Below are positions 317-41,100 of a stretch of 64,000 nucleotides of DNA, piece by piece. The translations under genes were made by a program, and so were the position numbers. Source of the DNA: Cloeon dipterum (lineage: Eukaryota > Arthropoda > Insecta > Ephemeroptera > Baetidae); contig NC_088789.1 in assembly GCF_949628265.1 (NCBI RefSeq), positions 10,036,886 to 10,100,885 on the forward strand, read 5' to 3'. The notes under the pieces were generated by a model. That model was not told the origin of the DNA. It was given only the letters and a program-made list of their open reading frames with translations, and did no database searches. Within the stretch, counting starts at the first letter, position 1; every line of letters begins with the position of its first letter.

Positions 317-11645
<11,329 letters not shown>

Positions 11646-13175: not shown

Positions 13176-15055
13176 TCATCGCGTTTGAGTTGGTGACGAC
13201 GACGGCTTGAGGCGCATCCCAGCGATTTTCTTCAAGCAGCTCCGAATTTCGTCGCTATCAGACACCATTTTCTTGAAGCTAAAACGCACCCTATTAGATC
13301 AGACATCACACAAAATGCGGTGTGACAATACCTTTCTTCAATTCTTTGGTATTCATCCTGCGTGAAGTTTCCATATTTGATAGCCTTCATGCATTTTGAG
13401 GCCAGGTTTTTGAAACAGCATTTTTTGATGGTGTTGTGAGCAACACTCTGCCAGGTTGGGGTTAGTGACACGTATTTCCAAGCCATTTCAGCATATTCAA
13501 TCACCGCTCCGTAATTCTTGCTATCAACAAGCTCATTGCCATAGTCGATAACAGCTTTCTGTAAATCAAACCGGTTCACTTACGATGCACTGGCTTTAAG
13601 AAAAACAATATTTACCTTGAACATGTTAAGGTGAGTACAGACTCGCGCGAAACCAGAAGCGTCGTACCTCTCAATTTCGCTCGACATAGGAAAGGCCTTA
13701 GAAATATTCCCATTCAAAGTTCTCAGCTGCTCCTCCATCAGTTCTAAGTCGGGAAATGAAAGATTGTCGCGGACCATTTGTTCCACATCAGGTTGGCTTT
13801 GAGTCACTCCCAGCAGCAGATTTATCAGTTGCTGCTTGGACTGTCCCTTCAGCAGCAAGGAAAGAGGCACCTGAGGCAAATTTCGCGTTCCCAACCTCTC
13901 CACACTTTTTCTCTTGGAAGGTGACGGTGTCTGCAAATGAGTTTGGAACCTCAGATACAGAAACTAACAGCATAAAATTCATTTAACTCCAAACAATTTT
14001 TTTTAAATCCCATACCTCTCAAGCAAAAATTGAAACCTCAAAGAAGGAACAAGCTCAGAAAGAAAAGTCCCATCCAGGGTCGAAAAAATTATTTATGTAG
14101 AAAGCAGTGCTCTGGTAAGAGCCGTTTTTGTACCAATTTTTCTACCTAAAAAGCGATTTTTTGAGAATATTTTGGTGATTCTTCGGTTGCATGATAACCT
14201 TTCATCTCAGAAGACTGAATGTTGCTATTGCACAAAAACAAAATGCAACTAGTGTTAATTCAGATGACTGAGATAGTAAATTTAATGAAAACAAAAATAT
14301 TAACTCTCTCCCTTGTCTGTTAAAATAATATGCCTCTGGAACTTAAGATTAATAAATACAAAAACTCTTAGTTTCTTAAATATCATGCTATTTTAATTAG
14401 CCATGAAGTGGCTTATTGAGAAAACTTGATTTAAAGCAGTAAAATTTGAAATAGTCAGGTCAAAACGTTAAAATAATTTGTTAGTTAAGCCATTCTATCA
14501 AGATTTCTAATATTTCTGCCAAAATTATAATAAATTCATTTCGTGCAATTTCTTGCGCACACAATTGGGCAAAGTAGGGTGAAAAAAACGGTAAAAACCG
14601 GGTGGTAAGAAAAAACCAATCCTGAACTCATGCATAACTCTAACCTGGGAGGTGACAGATAAAAGCTCGAAGCTTCCTGCTATGCGGCTCACTTTCCTTG
14701 GCGACTTTTCTGGAGTCCGTTCATCATTGAGTAAGAGTCGCTTCCTTGGGGTGCTGCGCAGGACAATGCCGCTTTGGTTTGGACTTCCCGGTATCAGCTT
14801 AATAGGCGAGCGTTTTACGTCGGGACTCCAAGTTACTGGAAGTTTCCTGCGTCCTCTGAGTTGAATAAGGAGCTCGTCCGGGGATGGTGACGGTGTCGGG
14901 AAGCTGGACGTATTTAATTCTGGAGTCACCGGCGACGGAGTACTGGAGGGGACCTCCATCAGAGCTCGTCTGGTAAAACGTCTCATGTTGTACACTGGTT
15001 CGTCAGCGTCAGAGTCGTTGTTGATGCCACCAGGAGTGTGAAGCACCGAATCCAT
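13176..15055 (-). CDS. cut8: Cut8/STS1-family tethering factor for nuclear proteasome
   Basis: Four exons (15055-14645, 13930-13616, 13558-13332, 13278-13176) join in phase to give 351 residues. The N-terminal third is disordered, rich in Ser-Pro and Thr-Pro pairs and basic clusters, as expected of a phosphoregulated nuclear protein. From about residue 140 a helical domain begins with a short Leu-rich repeat-like segment. It continues through a conserved Tyr/Asp/Gly/Trp-containing bundle matching the Cut8 fold, including an Ala-Glu-Met-Ala-Trp motif. In yeast and fly this family anchors 26S proteasomes in the nucleus. The last exon was placed by splice signals (donor GTATTG, acceptor TTTTAG) and phase, and adds 33 C-terminal residues. 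The family call rests on recognition of the domain; a different nuclear helical protein is the alternative. Confidence 0.72.
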
Positions 15056-16635
15056 CTAAAAAGATCATATAATTTTTATCTAGTAAATGCAATAGTAATT
15101 ATTTTTGTTGAAGTAGAAAAGCTATCGATGATAAAGTTCAAGCCCCTAATTGGGATGTGTGCTTTATGCTAGTGAAATGACTTTATTTCTCTTGACTCAT
15201 CTGGGGCAATTTAAATACAGGAAATTTCATTGCTTTTCACCTAGGGTAAAAAATATTTAACAGTTTAATCGATTAACCTTTTACACTTTCAAAGTGTCAA
15301 CTATTTGACACTTTCGTACTCTAAAAACGATAAAAAATACAGTTTCATCATAACAATAATTTTGGTCATTTCTTCTAATAGCTTATATGTTGCAATCCTT
15401 GTCAGAACTGCTTACGTAATGATCATATGATTCTTCCCGCCTAAACTGAGGGTGGGTGTATTTTGGTTTTAACTTTCAAACCTGAAAACCACATTTAGGA
15501 CAGGTTCTAATTGTATTTTCCATGGAATTAAGGCACAAAACACTCAAAAATATATTTCTGACTTAAATCTAACAAGATTCTTTGCTCCAATCGGTAAAAA
15601 ATATGATTTTTTTAATACATACCATCCGAGCGCGTTTGCTATGGCGGCAGTACCGTGTAGCATTTTAAATTTATTATCCAGCCATTAAATATGAACCCAT
15701 TAATTCATCGTGGCCTAAGAAATCATAGGGTTTTCTTTTTAAAACCCATAAAAAATATCCACCTTTTGATATAAAATTTAGCTCAAGCACAAACATCATA
15801 CATTTATTCCATTTTTATTCAACCCTAAGAGACGCCATTATCTTGGCGGCCAAATAGTGGTTCAAGGATCGCACAATAATTATTTATGCAGCACATTTAT
15901 CCCCAAAATAAGTTGCAAATCTGAAAATCAAGATATTAATCTGCTAATCTCACCTTCTACAAGTCCTGGATTTATGCAGAAAAAAAACAAATTCTTCTCT
16001 CCAAGTGGACAGATACCAACGACGACTGGCAACACACCTGGGCCAAGCGTATGATGATGATGATCTCGACTCGAGCTTCGCGCTCGCGGGAAGTGTAGAG
16101 ACAGTGAGAGTGGTGGTGTGCTGAACGTAGTAAATATCTGATGTTTACAACTGAGATCAATGTTGTGATTGGAGGACTGTTTTATAACTTCACCAATAGC
16201 AAAGGCTGCTTCCCTGCTGCGTCCGTTTAATTTACTAGCGGGAAATTTAAAGGAAATTTCACTTTTATCAAGTCATTATAATTCACTATCATTAACATTG
16301 GTATCAAAACTACTAAGACAAAAATTAATCTTGTTATGTTTAAAATAAGCAAACTGTGCTCAAATTGAGAACATTAAACAAAAAATCACTCGCTTTTTGT
16401 GACAACTGAATATCACGCCCCCTCAGGTCTCTAACTAGCAGTGAGGCCTACCGGCGGCCATCATTAAGGTCAGCTGTTTATGGTATCACTCTCAAGCAGA
16501 AGCAGTTTCTTGGTCGACGGCTCACGGTTTAGTTCATGAATTTGGGGAATTGGCGTTAGTTTGTTGATGTTTGTGTGAGGCAGCTTGACACTTGAACATT
16601 GCTGTGTACGCTGCATTTTAATTTATTGCTTCACC
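15056..16635. promoter_or_regulatory. Head-to-head intergenic region of Cut8-like and ZC3H14 genes
   Basis: This 1.58 kb spacer separates two divergent start codons and should contain both promoters and 5' untranslated exons. ATGGC/GCCAT cores like those bound by YY1/Pho occur near 15641, 15834 and 16456. They sit in short GC-rich patches inside AT-rich DNA. No coding exon is supported. Confidence 0.5.
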
Positions 16636-19600
16636 ATGGAATTGGTATGTTCTGAGGTGGGCAAAAAAATACGCTCGGCCATCAAAGTTCGGCTGATGGA
16701 GCTTGGGAAAACAGTCGACGATGAATTGATCGACTACATAATGGTGATGGCGGCCAACAAAAAAGAAGAGACTCAGATGGCCAAAGATTTGCAACCCTTC
16801 CTGGAAGAAGACACGAATAAATTCACTAGTTGGTTACAGAAGGTTTTGAAGAAACTGGAGCAGATCACAGTCACTGTTACTGACAATGAATACAAAGTGG
16901 CAGCCACTGTGAACAAGAAATCAAAATCTGTCACTGCTGACTCTCTGAAAAAGAAAGTTAAGGATGGTGACAGCAAGGACAAGAAGAAGAAACTGAAGGT
17001 TGCCAAGGATTTAAATGACACTCCGAAGAAATTAAAGGTAGTCAAAGCGACTGGGAAGACTCCTTCTGAAGTCAGTCCAGATTCAAAATCTAAGGGTAAA
17101 GTTAAATCAGTTGTCAAACTGAAGAAGACTGTCAAAGAGGAACCAACAATTCCATTGGAATCGTTTCCTAGCACATCAGGACTTCAAAGTTCGGTAGTTG
17201 TTGTTAGATCTGAATCAGTCTCTGAGAGAAAGATGGAAGCTGCCACTGCTAAACCTAGAGAACCAGTCATGATGGTGAGATAATTAAATGGCTGCAAGTT
17301 TCTATGTTTTAAACTTTCACAATTTCCAGACAAGTGACGTTGATGAGGACGAGGATGACGATTTTATCAACATCAAAACTGACTTAATTGAAGAAGAAGA
17401 ACTGCTAGCTGAAGAGCAGCCAAATGGAAGCAAAGTTAGTCGCGTTGAGAAGATGAGCAGCGATCATGATGTAAGATGAACGCCAAAGTGATATTCATTT
17501 TAATTTATCCCATCATTTTTTAGAGTGAATCGTCAAGGTCCAGGCCGTCATACCGCAACAATCCGGCAATCACGACTGCAGAGCTCAGGGCACGGAGGTC
17601 CGTGGCTAACAGGTCTAGAAATGAATCTCCACCTGTGCAAGCTGTTATTCGATCACAAGTGATTGCGAAAAAACGCAAAAGCCCAAGTCCTCCACCGAGA
17701 GTGTCGGTAATGTCAAGAATTGGCGCTGTGCTGAAGCGCAAAGCCGAAGAAGAGGAGGAAGTGAAGCCAAAAAGTGTCGCCAGTGTTGTTAGGATCAAAC
17801 CAAGAACAACCTTGCCTCCGGAAGCGCGCCCTTCCAAATTTCTTCTGCTTAAGGCTATCAATGAGGCGCAAAAATCAATCACTACTGCTAGACAAAAAAG
17901 TGTTGAAGAGGAAGAAGAAGCTGACTCGAGACCAAAGGTATTGCTGATGATAATCTAAAAATTTAGTTACCCCTTGATGTTTTAGTCTGTGCATGCCTTT
18001 CTCAAAATTAAAAATAGGCAATTATTTCAACATATTTCAGAAAAGGAATCAGCCTGCTGGCTCGCATTGTTAGTGCATTCTCAGGAGTGTCAAAGCAGTG
18101 GGAGATATTTAAGCAGTTTGAGGATCTAATAGTGGCTGCCCAATGTCGGAGATGGCAAAAGGTGGTTAGTTTAGTGACTCAAAATGCTCAAATAGCCCAA
18201 AGGGCTGGGAGGCGCACCGGCGCCGACTCACCACACTTGCTGGTTTACGCACCTTTCCAGTGGGTATAGGGACAAATAAATGTCTGGCGTTTGAATTCAG
18301 GAAGGCGAAAAAAGATAGCTGCTCTGCGGCCACTTGGGCCACTTGTTTCATGTTATCCGCTCGGCCCATAGCCCACGGGAAATTCTGAGCAGAGGTTATA
18401 AAAAGAATCAAATTAACAAACTTTTATCCTTTATCAATAAAAAGGAAAATTTTTTGGTTAAATCATAATTAAATCAGGTTAGGAATATATTTCCTTTCGC
18501 TGGAATTGTGTATTTTACAGTAGTTGGAACATTTGCTAAAAGTTTAAAATTTTCCATCTTGAATACGATGAAACTTAAATTTAGAGATCAGACATCACTT
18601 AAGAATCAGGTGCAAAATTTTTGCGTTAGCTAGCTTACAATTAACACCATTTTGCCCCAGCAGCGGCAGGGTACGATTTCTGGCATCTAATTTTTTAATC
18701 ACATTTGATGAATTCCTTGGGGATTATTTTATGCATTTGTAGCAAATTTTGCAGTATCAATCCTCTTTAATTCTATGATCGGTATCTCAACACAATTTTT
18801 TTTAAAAAGAAAATATAAAATTTCCATTTATCATTTTTACATTGTACTGTCAGTCCAGGCATCATTCCTTAAATTCCCGTTTGAATAGTTAAAATTGTAA
18901 TTTTCTAGCTTCTTCAATTTTACATCTTCTAGCATAAATATGATTTAAAACTAACTCCATGACAAATAATATTCTTATTTTTAACTACCAGCTTTTCACC
19001 AAGAACCTGAAGAATAGACTTGGTCCTAGAGAAAAGATCCAAGTTACGTTGCGCAACTTGGCAGCAGAGAAGAAGTATGATCTTGAAGAAGACGATGATG
19101 AGATGAATGAAGGGGATGGTACGAATTAATATTCTGCGAAAAACCGTTCGCCTAATTTTTCTTTGTCTCAGCGTACGTGCCTGAGCTCACAACCAGCAAG
19201 AATCAACCATCGGTAACTTACAAGCCAAGTCCTATCATAAAACCTGATGTGAACCGAAATCCTACCCAGTTTTTAATTACGCTGGATGGATATGAGGAGT
19301 ACTCCAACAAATATCTGAGGGCTACTGCCGAAGACATTGAGATGCTGCAGGAAGAGGGCGTTGAGATGGAGTTCATTGACGAAGGGCAGCTGGCTGATGA
19401 GAATGCACCCAGCAAGCCAAAGCGTAAACGCATCGTTTTCACACCTGAACCAGGTAAAAATCTTTCACTGTACCTTTTTAAGTAGAATTTAAATTATGTA
19501 AGGAATTCTGAGAGCGCTGAAAAAGGATTGAATGAGGTGTGTTCTGATACACTATTTTAATTGATTGAAAGAAAAAATGAAGAAATACGCACACTGGCTA

Positions 19601-20812
19601 AATCTTAAAATATGAAAAAAACTGAATGGCTCTTAAAATTAACTCTGGACGATTAGCTATTAGAGAAAGTTCTAGGAGGAACAGGAAATTAAATAACACA
19701 TTCTTGTACAGTAGTTAGTTGTTGTTTTGGCCCTGCATGCCTCATCAGCAGTACAGTAAGAATTTTCTGCAGCAAAGTTATGAATTTAGCTTTTGAGGTA
19801 AAGAACTGCTGATGAGGCCTGCAAGGCCGAAACAGCTGCTGTCTATTACGAGAACGTATGCTATTTAATTTTTCCTCGTAGCATATTCACTATTAGCTAA
19901 CCGCGCAGAATTAATTAACCACACAGTGTAGAGCCAATGTATTTTATTTTAGTTGATGTTGTTTCCTAAGGCTTGAAAAACTAATTAATTTGACATCTGA
20001 GTATCTTTGAACCCCTCTGAAGTATGCCCTTATTAAACATTACACCAATTCTTGTTGTTAAACCTTGCAGAGTTATATTTTTGTAGTTTAACTTCTCTGT
20101 AAAATAGGAGAAATGCCACAGTAACTATCAATTTGAACTGAAATCGAAGAGAGTGAGTTAAAATTAAAAATATTTCAGAGGAACCAGTGGCCACTGAGCC
20201 TGTCAAAAAGACCATGGAGAGGTGCAAATTTTGGCCGGCGTGCCGACAAGGTGACAGCTGTGGTTTTCACCACCCCTCGACTACTTGCAAGTAAGTATCC
20301 TTAATATAATGAATGAAATATTTTATCTATGAATTCACCTATCCAGCAACTTCCCTAATTGCAACTTTGGTGACCGCTGCTTATATATACACCCTAACTG
20401 CAAATTTGATGCTGCTTGCACTCGAAAAGATTGTCCGTTCACTCACGCCAGTCCAAGAACCTTCACTGCTGTTGTTGCCATTCCTAAGTTTGTGCCAGGT
20501 ATGTCTACTTTTGGATTGTTTTAGGTTTTCTAACAAAACATAATTACAGCTCCAGTGGTTCGACCTGCAGCTCCGGTAAAGCCTGTCGGCCCTACGATTT
20601 GTCGCTTCTACCCTGGATGTACCAATATGAATTGCAGATTTTTCCATCCCAAGGTGAGCTCAACAAATAAAGAAAAAGGAGAAACCTAATTTTTATGTAT
20701 ATTATAGCCATGCCGGTTTGGAGCTAGCTGCAAAAGCTTTGGTTGTATTTTCTCTCACCCTGATGTTGCCCCCATCACAAAGCTGAAATGGGTCAATACA
20801 GCATCAGTCTAA
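16636..20812 (+). CDS. ZC3H14: ZC3H14/Nab2 nuclear poly(A)-RNA-binding zinc finger protein
   Basis: Nine exons (16636-17274, 17330-17470, 17524-17937, 18992-19118, 19172-19453, 20179-20290, 20347-20498, 20550-20653, 20708-20812) keep phase and encode 691 residues. The first ~90 residues form the PWI-like helical domain typical of Nab2. A long Lys/Ser/Glu-rich disordered region follows, with nuclear-localisation-like basic runs. The C-terminus holds five tandem CCCH fingers of spacing C-x5-C-x4/5-C-x3-H, the hallmark of this family, which binds adenosine tails and limits their length. Introns before exons 4 and 6 carry a SINE-like repeat and a hammerhead ribozyme pair respectively. The CCCH count and the N-terminal fold leave little doubt about the identity. 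Confidence 0.95.
18051..18412 (+). repeat. Dispersed SINE-like repeat, copy B, in a ZC3H14 intron
   Basis: This copy closely matches copy A over its first ~210 bases, then diverges, regaining similarity at a CATGTTATCC block near 18349. It lies in the 1.05 kb intron 17938-18991 in the sense orientation of ZC3H14. Within it a 60-codon frame (18087-18269) is open, but the same frame is broken in copies A and C, so it is not treated as a gene. Confidence 0.85.
19672..19767 (-). ncRNA. Degenerate hammerhead-like motif, inverted partner
   Basis: On the minus strand this arm contains the core heptamer CTGATGA (19748 to 19742), a GGC/GCC stem II and a long pairing arm. The required GAAA is AAAA and the stem III strand is mutated. 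It is an imperfect inverted repeat of the intact motif at 19791-19860, with similarity continuing into the flanks. It is probably an inactive relic. Confidence 0.6.
19791..19860 (+). ncRNA. Hammerhead ribozyme, type I, intact core
   Basis: All conserved core elements are in order on the plus strand. CTGATGA is at 19809-19815. A perfect four-pair stem II (GGCC with GGCC, loop TGCAA) is at 19816-19828, and GAAA at 19829-19832. Stem III runs A-C-A-G with C-T-G-T over a three-base loop (19832-19842), followed by the TC cleavage dinucleotide at 19842-19843. Stem I is open-ended: 19807-19808 pair with 19844-19845, a five-base bulge follows, and then GTAA (19798-19801) pairs with TTAC (19846-19849). 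It lies in the ZC3H14 intron 19454-20178, in the sense direction. Such short type I hammerheads are known in Penelope-like and other retroelements. Activity is predicted, not shown. Confidence 0.82.
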
Positions 20813-21860: not shown

Positions 21861-23166
21861 ATGGAGATGGACGACGAGTTTTTGGATTTGGACAACGCTG
21901 GGTCGGTGGACTTGGGATTTGCAGAAAAATGCGACCCGTGGAAACTGGAAAGTCATTTCTTCCCAAGCAAGATTGGTGGAAAGCCAGCCTGGCTGAACTT
22001 TTCACATGTACCAGCAGCAGACCGGGTCCTTTGCAAAACATGCAAAAATCCGTGCATTTTTCTTTGCCAAATTTATGCACCCATCATGAGCACAGACGAA
22101 TGTTTCCACCGGACTCTATTTTTATTCGTCTGCCGAAACGAAGACTGCTGCGAGCCGAATCGGTCTGACAACTTAGTAGTTCTTCGATGCCAGCTTAAGA
22201 GAGAAAACGAATATTTTTCATCCAGCCCACCAGTCGAATCGAAAAGTTTTTCGCCAAAATGTAAAGTGACCGATTTCACTAAAACATGCCGAGTCTGCAA
22301 TTTAAAGGGCACATCACACTGCGGCAAATGCCAATCAGTGAACTACTGCTGCCGTGAGCACCAGGTTGCTGACTGGAAAGCAGGACACAATTTGGAATGT
22401 AAATCTGGCAAAGGTAATTTTCTCTGTTGAAGAGAGTGCGATTTGTATCTCTGAACTGCTTCATTTTTTCCAGCTGACCCTCAAAGAAAGTGCCCACTGT
22501 TGCTCCCAGAGTGTGAAATAGAAATTGAAGCAGAGGAATTGACGGATGAAGCAAGAGAAGGAAAAAGGGAAAAGTCTGAGGAGGAAAAAATGAAGGAATA
22601 TGAAAATTTAATTAAGGAAGGCAAAGCTGGAACCATGCATGGTATGCAATTATATTTTATTATAAATGCTCTCAAGGCTCCTGCGCTCTTCTCATATTAT
22701 TCTGCTACTGTTATGGAATTAGAATTCATGTTAAAAAACATTATAGGGGACTCATCAGCAGATCCAGATTTTGATGCTATGAATGAGGACAAGGAAGATG
22801 TTGTCTTCAAGAAGTTCAAAAAAAGGATTGCTGCAACCGCTGCTCAAGTTTTGAGATACGAAAAAGATGGAGAACCACTGTGGGTGTCACAAGAACATCA
22901 ACCAAATGCTATCCCGCCATGTGAATATTGTGGAGGAGAGAGAACCTTTGAATTCCAGGTAATACAATATTGTTATCTCTTCTCTGATATAAAGCTAACT
23001 GATTTGTTTTCAGATTCTACCTCAAATGTTGAATCACCTAGCTCTGGATCAAATTGGCAAAAGTATTGATTGGGGCACCATAGCGATTTTTACTTGCAAA
23101 GAAAGCTGCGACAATGGTGACGCGTATAAATCAGAATTTGTGTACAAGCAAGATATTGTTCAATGA
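21861..23166 (+). CDS. PDCD2: PDCD2/Zfrp8, MYND zinc-finger ribosomal-protein chaperone
   Basis: Four exons (21861-22413, 22474-22641, 22747-22958, 23014-23166) join in phase to give 361 residues. The N-terminal PDCD2 half begins with a Gly-Phe/Gly-Gly-Lys-Pro-Ala-Trp-Leu signature and zinc-binding CxxC pairs. A MYND finger follows at about residues 135-180, with the C-x2-C, C-x2-C and H-x3-C-type ligands visible. After an acidic Glu/Lys linker, the PDCD2_C domain contains C-E-Y-C-G-G and ends with a conserved acidic-Trp-Gly-Thr-Ile strand and a final cysteine pair. PDCD2 proteins escort ribosomal protein uS5 (RPS2) into 40S assembly, and the fly homologue Zfrp8 is needed in stem cells. The ATG lies in a good context (CACAATGG). 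Confidence 0.95.
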
Positions 23167-38101: not shown

Positions 38102-41100
38102 TCACACAAATAGGGTCAATTGATTGTACAGCTCTTGCAGACAATGTTCCATCTGGGTCGCAGATGGTCTTTCCTGTGGATCTATTAACCAACAAAATGC
38201 CATGGCATCAAACCTGAAAACATAAACAAGAATCAAAAATTGGTCAAGCAGTGCATTTAAAAGGGACTCACAGTTTATTTGGACAATTAAGAGGATGGGC
38301 GAGTCTGTAACCCTTCTCCAGGTATTCTGACATCTCAAAGGGATCAATATCTGAGTAAGGAGCTTGCGCCAGTGTGACGATTTCCCACAGGAGGACTCCA
38401 AATGCCCACTAAAAGATCACGATTCAACGCTAATCCGTATTTGATTCCAGCCATTCTCTTACCATATCAGACTTAGTTGTGAACTCGTGGCGGTTCAGGG
38501 CTTCGATTGCCATCCATTTAATTGGTCGGTTGTCGTTGTCGCCCAGACAGTGGTAGTCCATTGGGAAGAGATCTCTAGCTAAAGCATTGTCGGCAATTTG
38601 TATCCTAAAATTGCCATCAATCCTGGAATAAGTCAGACAAATTTTTTTTTAAAAGGTTGAAATTTAAAATTTATTTTAGGTGCACAATAAATCGATTTCT
38701 CAGAAAGAAGAAAATCGTTTTTTAGCCTATCCTCCTTAACCTCCTTTTTGTCCCTATCCGCTGGAAAGGTGCGAAAACCAGCAAGAGGTGAGCTGAAGCC
38801 GGTGCGCCTCAAAGCCCGTTGGGCTTTTAGAGCATTTCGAGTCACTCAACTAACCACCTTTTGCTATCTCTGACATTGGGCAGCCAGTATTAGATCCCCG
38901 AAATGCTCAAGTTAATATCTCCCATTGCTTTGACACTCCTGAGCGAGCCAAAGTTTAATGCAATCGTTTATTTTAAAGCTAACTTAAATTTTTTTTCTAG
39001 GGTAGCACTTACATGCAATTTCTGGCAGCAATATCTTTGTGAATGATTTGCTTCCTATGCAAATAACGCATGGCTGCGTTGACCTGAAGGCCCATGTCCA
39101 CAAATTTCTGCGTGGTTATCATGTGAGACATGCCTCCGTCGCTATTGTAATGGCGACAGTTTAAGAGGAACCTGCATCAGGAAATATACAATTTATTAAG
39201 GAAAAAAAATACGTGTGGATGAAACTTGCCTCTTGAGATTTATGTGGCCCTTGTAAGGGTAAATAAGAAGGGGTATATTTTCGTCGAGAGACACCCCTCT
39301 CACTGCGAGCAAGTTTTGGTGAGTGAGGGCGTACAGGTACGTGCCCTCCTGCAGCAGTAAGTTGATCTGCACTTGAGATGCTTGGTCCACCACCGTCTTC
39401 ACGAGGACATCTTCCTCCTTCATGGTGAGCGCTTCAGCATAGGAGCCGAGGTAGACTCTTCCAAAGGTTCCCTCCTGCACCACGCTTTTTAGCCGTACGC
39501 GGCATCTGGAAAAGGTTGAATTAATTTCTCGCTCAAAACTTTTGAAATAGATATCTACCTCTGAATGGTGAGTTCGTTGATCCGTTCTGTAATATCGTGT
39601 GTCCGGTCGTCCCTGCTAGTGACGACTGAGGGCACCTGGCAAACCGAAGCAGCTGAAGCCGTTCCTCCGAGGACAGAGTGAGCCGACTCGTGGTGCCGAG
39701 ATGGCTGCCTCCTTGAAGAGTAGCTGGCGTAGCTACTGGCACCAGACTTGGCAGAGCTGGAGCCTGCAGGGGCGATGATTGGTACACCGTGGTGGAAATT
39801 GTTTGGCGACGGAGTGGGCACCACAGGGGCTGGCAGCGTGTAGGCTTTGGGGTGCAGCAGCGGTCCAGTCAGTTGGGAATTCGCAATCATGCGCGAGTCA
39901 CTGCAAAGGGACCAACATTGGGATTCAATTGAGATTTCCAAAGTCAAAAGAAAAAATAAAACAATGAATTTTAAATTTTTACTCTTAAATTTGTGCACAT
40001 GTAAAGTAAAAAACGTGTAAAGTAAAAATTGAGTTGCCAAATTTTAATTATATGCACAGCAAAAATTTTGTTGTTTGATAAAAACGATATTATAAATTAA
40101 TGTTTAGAACTCTCAATAATAACTGTTTTTGGGTGTTTCTAGGAGAAATTTGATAGTACGGTCTGCAACTTTGAAATTTTTGGTCGTGGTATTTTTTTAT
40201 TTTTTGATAATATGTTGTTGGAGTCATACAGAGAAAAACTCGAGATATTCATGATTTTGTGAACTGGCTGGCTTCTGATTTCACCCTGTTTTTCCGGGAA
40301 TGGTAATGCATTTTTTACAAACATTTGTGATTACAGCACCTCTAAATTTCAGACCATATCAAATCTCTCCTGAAACCACTTTTTTCATTTTAACTCAACA
40401 AATATTACAAATGTTGAGAATTTTCAATGAAAATTAAAGTTGGGAGATACTTACTGGATGACATCCTGGCGCCTGGACTTGTTTCTGTTTCTAGCGCAGC
40501 AAATTGATAAGAATACCGCAACAAAGACCAACAGGCCGAAAGCACACGCCGCGGCTGCGATAAACGGGTTGTTGTTCTCTGGCCCTGACGCTTCTGGAGA
40601 AGTGTCCACAGAGACATGCCCCGAGGAGAATTGAGACAAATCGTTGCTCTCAGACAAAGTAGATTTTCCTAAAAACATTAATAAGAATTTTAGTTTCCGA
40701 GTGTATCTTCCGCATGACTTTATACGTGTGAATCTACTAGTTTTGAAATATAAATTATATCTTGTCTTGAAGAATAGCTTACTTTGGAGGCAAAACTTCT
40801 TTCTCATCAAAGTGATCGCAGTGACAGTTTTCTTTTCACTAGTAACGTTGATGGAAATGTTGACATCCACCTCAGCGTCGAGATTGCCAGTGCAGGGCAA
40901 CACCACTTTGAAGATCTCCTGCTCCGTTGGCACGAAACCCACCGTTGTGATGTTGGCAGTTGGCCGATCCAAGGCGTTTTGGTTGGAAACAACGTCTATT
41001 GAAAGAGAGTATGGCATCTGAAACAAAAATGCATGTTTGAGAAACATGATTGATTGAAATTGGATAATCAGGACTGGGTAATATTGAATTGCGCCGTAAA

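Follow-up and report, generated by a model that had tools for sequence, protein, structure and literature searches.

In an intron of a ZC3H14-like gene of the mayfly Cloeon dipterum there lies a hammerhead-like motif which we read, with a probability of roughly three in four, as the decayed copy of a type-I hammerhead that belonged to an old, multi-copy, non-coding mobile element with inverted-repeat arms. We infer that the ancestral motif cleaved itself and that the copy described here has since lost this activity. The window referred to throughout is the whole stretch of 64,000 nucleotides that was analysed, and positions are counted from its first letter.

The motif extends from the 5' strand to the 3' strand of stem I at 19803-19849 on the forward strand, as seen in the sequence, in the family alignment and in a descriptor scan, which returned this one site on the forward strand of the window and none on the reverse strand. 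Every core base of a hammerhead stands in its correct order and stems II and III are paired, as a first-pass annotation of the DNA had read directly from the letters. On the forward strand, the core CTGATGA (C3-A9) at 19809-19815 is followed by stem II (GGCC-TGCAA-GGCC, 19816-19828), by the core GAA (G12-A14) at 19829-19831, and by stem III (ACAG-CTG-CTGT, 19832-19842), which includes the A15.1-U16.1 pair; both stems were also recovered by the descriptor scan. The triplet is GUC, and since C17 falls at 19843 the cleavage site was placed correctly, 3' of that base, were the motif active. To call the hammerhead intact was nevertheless too strong, because stem I of the window copy is broken: in the register of the alignment four of its six pairs form and the mismatches interrupt them, and in an alternative form two base pairs and four base pairs flank a 5-nt bulge. 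A degenerate second motif, identified from the inverted repeat and its row in the alignment, occupies the opposite arm on the reverse strand (19712-19752); here CTGATGA is kept, GAAA has become AAAA, and the stretch pairs with 19805-19845 in an inverted repeat that is 80% complementary.

The surrounding gene, which is probably a ZC3H14/Nab2-like gene, bears out the intronic location proposed for the motif. The exons on either side, one ending with 19453 and the other starting with 20179, are in frame, with a donor GT at 19454, an acceptor AG at 20177-20178 and a reading frame that runs on across the gap; the motif therefore sits inside a 725-nt intron (19454-20178, forward strand). Upstream on the same strand, the N-terminal coding region (16627-17280) contains a PWI domain (Pfam PF01480, E 7.7e-05), and the exon region at 20179-20761 contains four CCCH fingers, located by a regular-expression scan at 20223, 20399, 20600 and 20711. 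The best PDB match of the finger pair is Nab2 (E 0.00035), its closest solved relative; a PDB search with the N-terminus gave only two chance matches, and a genome search with zf-CCCH_2 matched nowhere, controls included. Elsewhere in the window we observed a MYND-finger protein (21861-22427, forward strand) that resembles PDCD2, a tyrosine/serine-threonine kinase domain (39196-39612, reverse strand), a Cut8 domain (13232-13576, reverse strand) and, at 5318-10196, numerous short reading frames with collagen-like Gly-X-Y repeats.

A mobile-element origin had been suggested together with a check of copy number, and the genome (190,111,064 bases in 10 contigs) bore the suggestion out, as DNA related to the segment is dispersed in at least 64 matching pieces (40 of 191 candidates scored), and the 81-nt core alone has at least 41 matches (40 of 381 candidates scored). 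A profile built from 61 sequences defines a repeat family with a consensus of 786 bp, within which arms at 34-271 and 481-732 are inverted with 93% identity over 252 columns; the arms are alike in part because the profile accepted matches from both strands and so homogenised them to a degree. Both outward-facing ends are present within 1.2 kb at 23 of the 61 loci, and the family thus has inverted arms at both ends, as a MITE-like inverted-repeat DNA element does. The copy in the window spans 19575-19951, with approximate ends taken from the profile matches. Copy ends in general are too divergent to place exactly, and an informal inspection by eye of the profile match table gave no pile-up of ends at the cleavage site. 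An 8-bp repeat, ATTAGCTA, was considered as a target-site duplication and rejected, as it belongs to the inverted arms. CTGATGA is retained in both arms of a single copy only in the window and at loci L056 and L090; elsewhere it is partly or wholly gone from the second arm. A second repeat family (36 rows), with an outer end ...GGGAGTAGCCATTGTAAAAT, occurs at L061:4943-5082 and L100-L134; it has the same motif block, 95.8% identical to that of the first family over 118 columns, and differs farther out.

The element had been linked tentatively, and more specifically, to the Penelope-like elements or retrozymes, and this part of the suggestion was not borne out in the way that the mobile origin was. 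We regard it as unlikely that the family is a remnant of such an element whose inverted arms formed secondarily. Published animal hammerheads do ride on retrozymes and Penelope-like elements, according to the accessible portions of two reports (PMC7229834, PMC7761336), and the same genome contains a direct-repeat hammerhead element, so that some link between retrozymes and the family is conceivable. At L171:1679-2756, two direct repeats of 468 bp (99.4% identical) stand 610 bp apart and include the motif loci L151 and L152; each repeat has a full minimal hammerhead fold with a 2-bp stem III and a GTC site, in the manner of a retrozyme or a Penelope-type terminal repeat. Further copies of this type are among the listed matches to the core pattern described below, and two of those on contig C2 are again 610 bp apart. 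Against such an origin of the intronic family, neighbouring motifs in it are inverted in eight of nine pairs and not in tandem, and no reading frame in its 786-bp consensus exceeds 72 codons.

Reading frames were observed at other loci near motifs of this kind. At L172:800-2489, inverted repeats of about 349 nt with 93% identity flank a BTB/BACK-like frame (BACK E 0.009, below cut-off), and related frames occur at L173, where Pfam gave no match, and at L175. A CTGAYGA-hairpin-GAAAC motif stands at the homology breakpoint between these three loci, and the L172-type locus is possibly a cargo-bearing element. At L178:1760-1807 we saw a short stretch, some 48 bases long, that is self-palindromic (92%).

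The family consensus, as opposed to the window copy, carries a complete type-I hammerhead layout. It reads GTACTG, CTGATGA, GGCC-TGCGG-GGCC, GAA, ACAG-CTG-CTGT, A and CAGTAC, with 6 + 4 + 4 = 14 Watson–Crick pairs, and the invariant core CUGANGA and GAAA is in order both here and in the window; the consensus triplet is GUA, whereas the window and locus L169 have GUC. That chance is an improbable source of the motif, as argued at the outset, agrees with the recurrence of related DNA across the genome, with the full motif in the consensus and with how rarely shuffled sequences match it. All 14 Watson–Crick pairs were reached in 0 of 2,879,745 dinucleotide shuffles of the consensus (three reached 12), and a looser test that allowed G-U pairs was less extreme, with five strands reaching at least 14 pairs in 445,978 shuffles; both nulls leave out the hairpin-rich make-up of such elements.

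Single copies are more worn. Among the 97 arms scored, which are those with at most four gaps in the motif from 120 distinct arms (23 dropped), the nine core bases are kept in 50 and, together with A15.1-U16.1 and H17, in 34; all of these plus all 14 pairs, with G-U allowed, are found in three (L128, L117 and L017). Mean identity to the consensus is 0.917 in the core, 0.871 in the stems, 0.836 in the loops and 0.875 in the flanks, a small gap which base composition could explain. There is no covariation among the 97 arms: 1127 of 1344 cells are paired against a shuffle mean of 1130.8, and paired double changes number 8 against 11.4 in shuffles. This is as expected of dead copies, but it is of no help to the case for a ribozyme.

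Other sequences in the genome bear on whether the motif descends from a real hammerhead. The pattern CTGANGAGN{7,16}CGAAAC has 202 matches in the genome (95 forward, 107 reverse) where a reversed control has 43, and in the 100 of these matches that were listed stem II has at least three pairs in 65 and fewer in 35, most commonly GGC/GCC (32) and GGG/CCC (16). We examined 20 pattern loci with a complementary stem II (L151-L170); five of them have a full hammerhead fold and the other 15 have none. L151-L153 are of one type, with stem I ggctag/ctagtc, stem II GGGT/ACCC, a 2-bp stem III and GTC; L159 has stem I ggtttg/caaacc and a stem III of 1 bp; and L169, also with GTC, has stem I ttgtgttg/tagcacgg and 8 + 4 + 4 pairs. 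L169, L151 and L159 were found by the core pattern and then screened for folds. The sequence of stem I varies among these three and locus L094 and yet stays complementary, so that the three other sequence types, each with a full fold and unlike stems, support a probable descent of the motif from real hammerheads. A shuffle control for the pattern loci gave 0 matches in 20 mononucleotide shuffles and is biased, because many of the loci had been picked by motif. Pairs were not counted on the mixed-family MAFFT alignment because the 3' strands are misplaced there. We also observed CTGACGAGGCTTTGATAGCCGAAAC five times at C2:10103732-10141894, always on the same strand and at a spacing of about 8-11 kb, resembling a tandem array.

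The same comparisons weigh on a further alternative, namely that the motif is a conserved DNA or RNA hairpin which merely resembles a hammerhead and was never active as a ribozyme, with GCTG/CAGC and stem II enclosing an AYGA/GAAA internal loop, kept by descent or for transposition. The plain hairpin is indeed the predicted minimum-energy fold of the consensus (-16.2 versus -12.6 kcal/mol for the hammerhead), of L094 (-16.4 versus -10.0 kcal/mol) and of the window copy (-13.8 versus +0.6 kcal/mol for the hammerhead in register), all energies being of secondary structure only, with tertiary contacts ignored. When the core of the consensus is held free the best fold is the hammerhead, and such folds make up 2e-3 of the ensemble. 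The missing covariation fits a plain hairpin too, as do L155, L160, L161, L163 and L164, which share the order GTACTG-CTGAYGA-hairpin-GAAAC-AG without a matching 3' strand of stem I. A plain hairpin, however, leaves unexplained why the family consensus has full partners for stems I and III, why L169, L151 and L159 have differing but complementary stem I pairs, and why none of the nearly three million strict shuffles reached the consensus pairing; we therefore consider it quite improbable.

Covariance models had been proposed as a check on the window. At gathering score (34 bits for Hammerhead_1, RF00163; 48.5 bits for Hammerhead_3) the 64-kb window has no hammerhead match in Rfam, as would speak against the motif, but better-preserved relatives fall below threshold as well, and because the models under-score these too, the missing match is not decisive. 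With relaxed settings, the only hammerhead model to match 401 bases of the window was Hammerhead_3 (17.9 bits against a threshold of 48.5, E 0.39), which ranks below several miRNA models; the miRNA matches, led by MIR6140 with 40.1 bits against 140, were discounted, since it is the long inverted repeat that these models respond to. L094 scored 18.5 bits with Hammerhead_1, aligned over 1-45 of 45 with all pairs standard; L128 scored 21.2 bits in a different register that includes two non-standard pairs; and L169 scored 24.3 bits with Hammerhead_1 (E 0.00023), again aligned over 1-45 of 45 and with no non-standard pair marked. This last value is the best among the window and the loci scored singly, and none reached the gathering score. 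L117 and L046 had no Rfam hammerhead match, 12 loci scanned with E values of up to 10 allowed likewise gave none, and L169 and L171 had none in a mixed-locus scan. Genome-wide, RF00163 gave five matches, all below cut-off (best 21.5 bits; 73 of 28,838 candidates scored) and none at a locus resembling the inverted-repeat family, and RF00008 gave one match of 24.9 bits, also below cut-off; these results say little, because both models match below cut-off in bacterial and archaeal controls.

The window copy itself is very probably inactive, to judge from predicted folding, again at the level of secondary structure with tertiary contacts ignored. Its hammerhead fold, in the bulged form, has -3.5 kcal/mol against a local minimum of -17.4 kcal/mol, and thus lies 13 kcal/mol or more above what the local alternatives reach. 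In a transcript of 19600-19960 (-129.2 kcal/mol), 19805-19850 is predicted to pair with 19705-19752 save for a few bases, and the core-free fraction falls from 1.6e-5 locally to 1.6e-22. The proposal that the motif cuts the ZC3H14 pre-mRNA and alters splicing, for which the core, stems II and III and a GUC triplet on the transcribed strand of the intron could speak, is thus most improbable, given the broken stem I, the unfavourable fold and scarcely free core just described, the second arm that pairs with the whole motif, and the fact that a neutral repeat inserted in an intron requires no function.

The reading we prefer, a decayed hammerhead of an inverted-repeat element, may be pictured as follows. 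A non-coding mobile element with inverted arms would have landed in the ZC3H14 intron. Its ancestral motif could have folded around the invariant core by pairing GTACTG with CAGTAC in stem I, GGCC with GGCC in stem II and ACAG with CTGT in stem III, and cleavage would have followed the A of the GUA triplet, some 130 nt from the arm's outer end. Because the window copy has a decayed stem I and an opposite arm that complements the motif, the pre-mRNA most likely forms a long hairpin there without cleavage. It is hence possible for an intronic hammerhead core to be a dead passenger, and for a second, inverted arm to mask such a core.

If the ancestral ribozyme did cleave, hammerheads would reach beyond retrozymes, Penelope-like elements and satellites into an inverted-repeat element, and the question would be of what use a self-cutting RNA is to an element that may move as DNA. 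More tentatively still, as a possibility we consider less likely than not, this animal genome may harbour several hammerhead-bearing mobile elements, one family of which had a complete hammerhead in long, inverted arms, pointing outward, such that transcripts of each strand were cut near the 3' arm while the element was active. If so, cutting would compete with double-stranded RNA folding and could have curbed silencing or defined the ends of the RNA, and such an architecture would be new among ribozyme-bearing transposons. With several hammerhead types in one genome, comparison of stems across families offers a direct test.

Among known systems, Hammerhead_1 (RF00163) has the core order and the three stems in common with L094 and L169, and differs in that both score below its 34 bits and that the family consensus has GUA, not GUC. 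Conserved intronic hammerheads were reportedly described in amniotes by de la Pena and Garcia-Robles in 2010; the intronic location is common to both, whereas those are said to be conserved single loci and ours is a decayed repeat copy. As for mobile carriers, the accessible parts of the literature place hammerheads in retrozymes, Penelope-like elements, Terminons, SINE-like elements and satellites (PMC7229834, PMC7761336, PMC6431247, PMC4918200, PMC8490949, PMC12477314, PMC6515669, PMC3409120, PMC3653858). Within those parts we found no description of hammerheads inside inverted terminal arms, and the inverted-arm carrier is therefore only provisionally new among known animal carriers. The W-elements of Schistosoma mansoni are, like the family, non-coding repeats of which some have functional hammerheads; MITE Tracker was used there to look for inverted repeats and target-site duplications, and intra-element inverted repeats lie beside predicted miRNA and snoRNA units. 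They differ in forming satellite-like arrays on the W chromosome, and in the portion of the report accessible to us their inverted repeats are not described as hammerhead-bearing (PMC8490949). Penelope-like elements and Terminons are, as far as the available text of two reports goes, likewise mobile carriers of type-I hammerheads, but these are minimal, some with a reduced stem III, and sit in pseudo-LTRs or at the 3' ends of reverse-transcriptase elements, whereas the family has a 4-bp stem III in the inverted arms of a non-coding element (PMC7761336, PMC6431247). Metazoan non-LTR retrozymes, in what we could consult of their description, are small, non-coding, dispersed animal repeats with type-I hammerheads, as is the family described here, yet they are built of tandem repeats of 150-450 bp where the family is built of inverted arms (PMC7229834).
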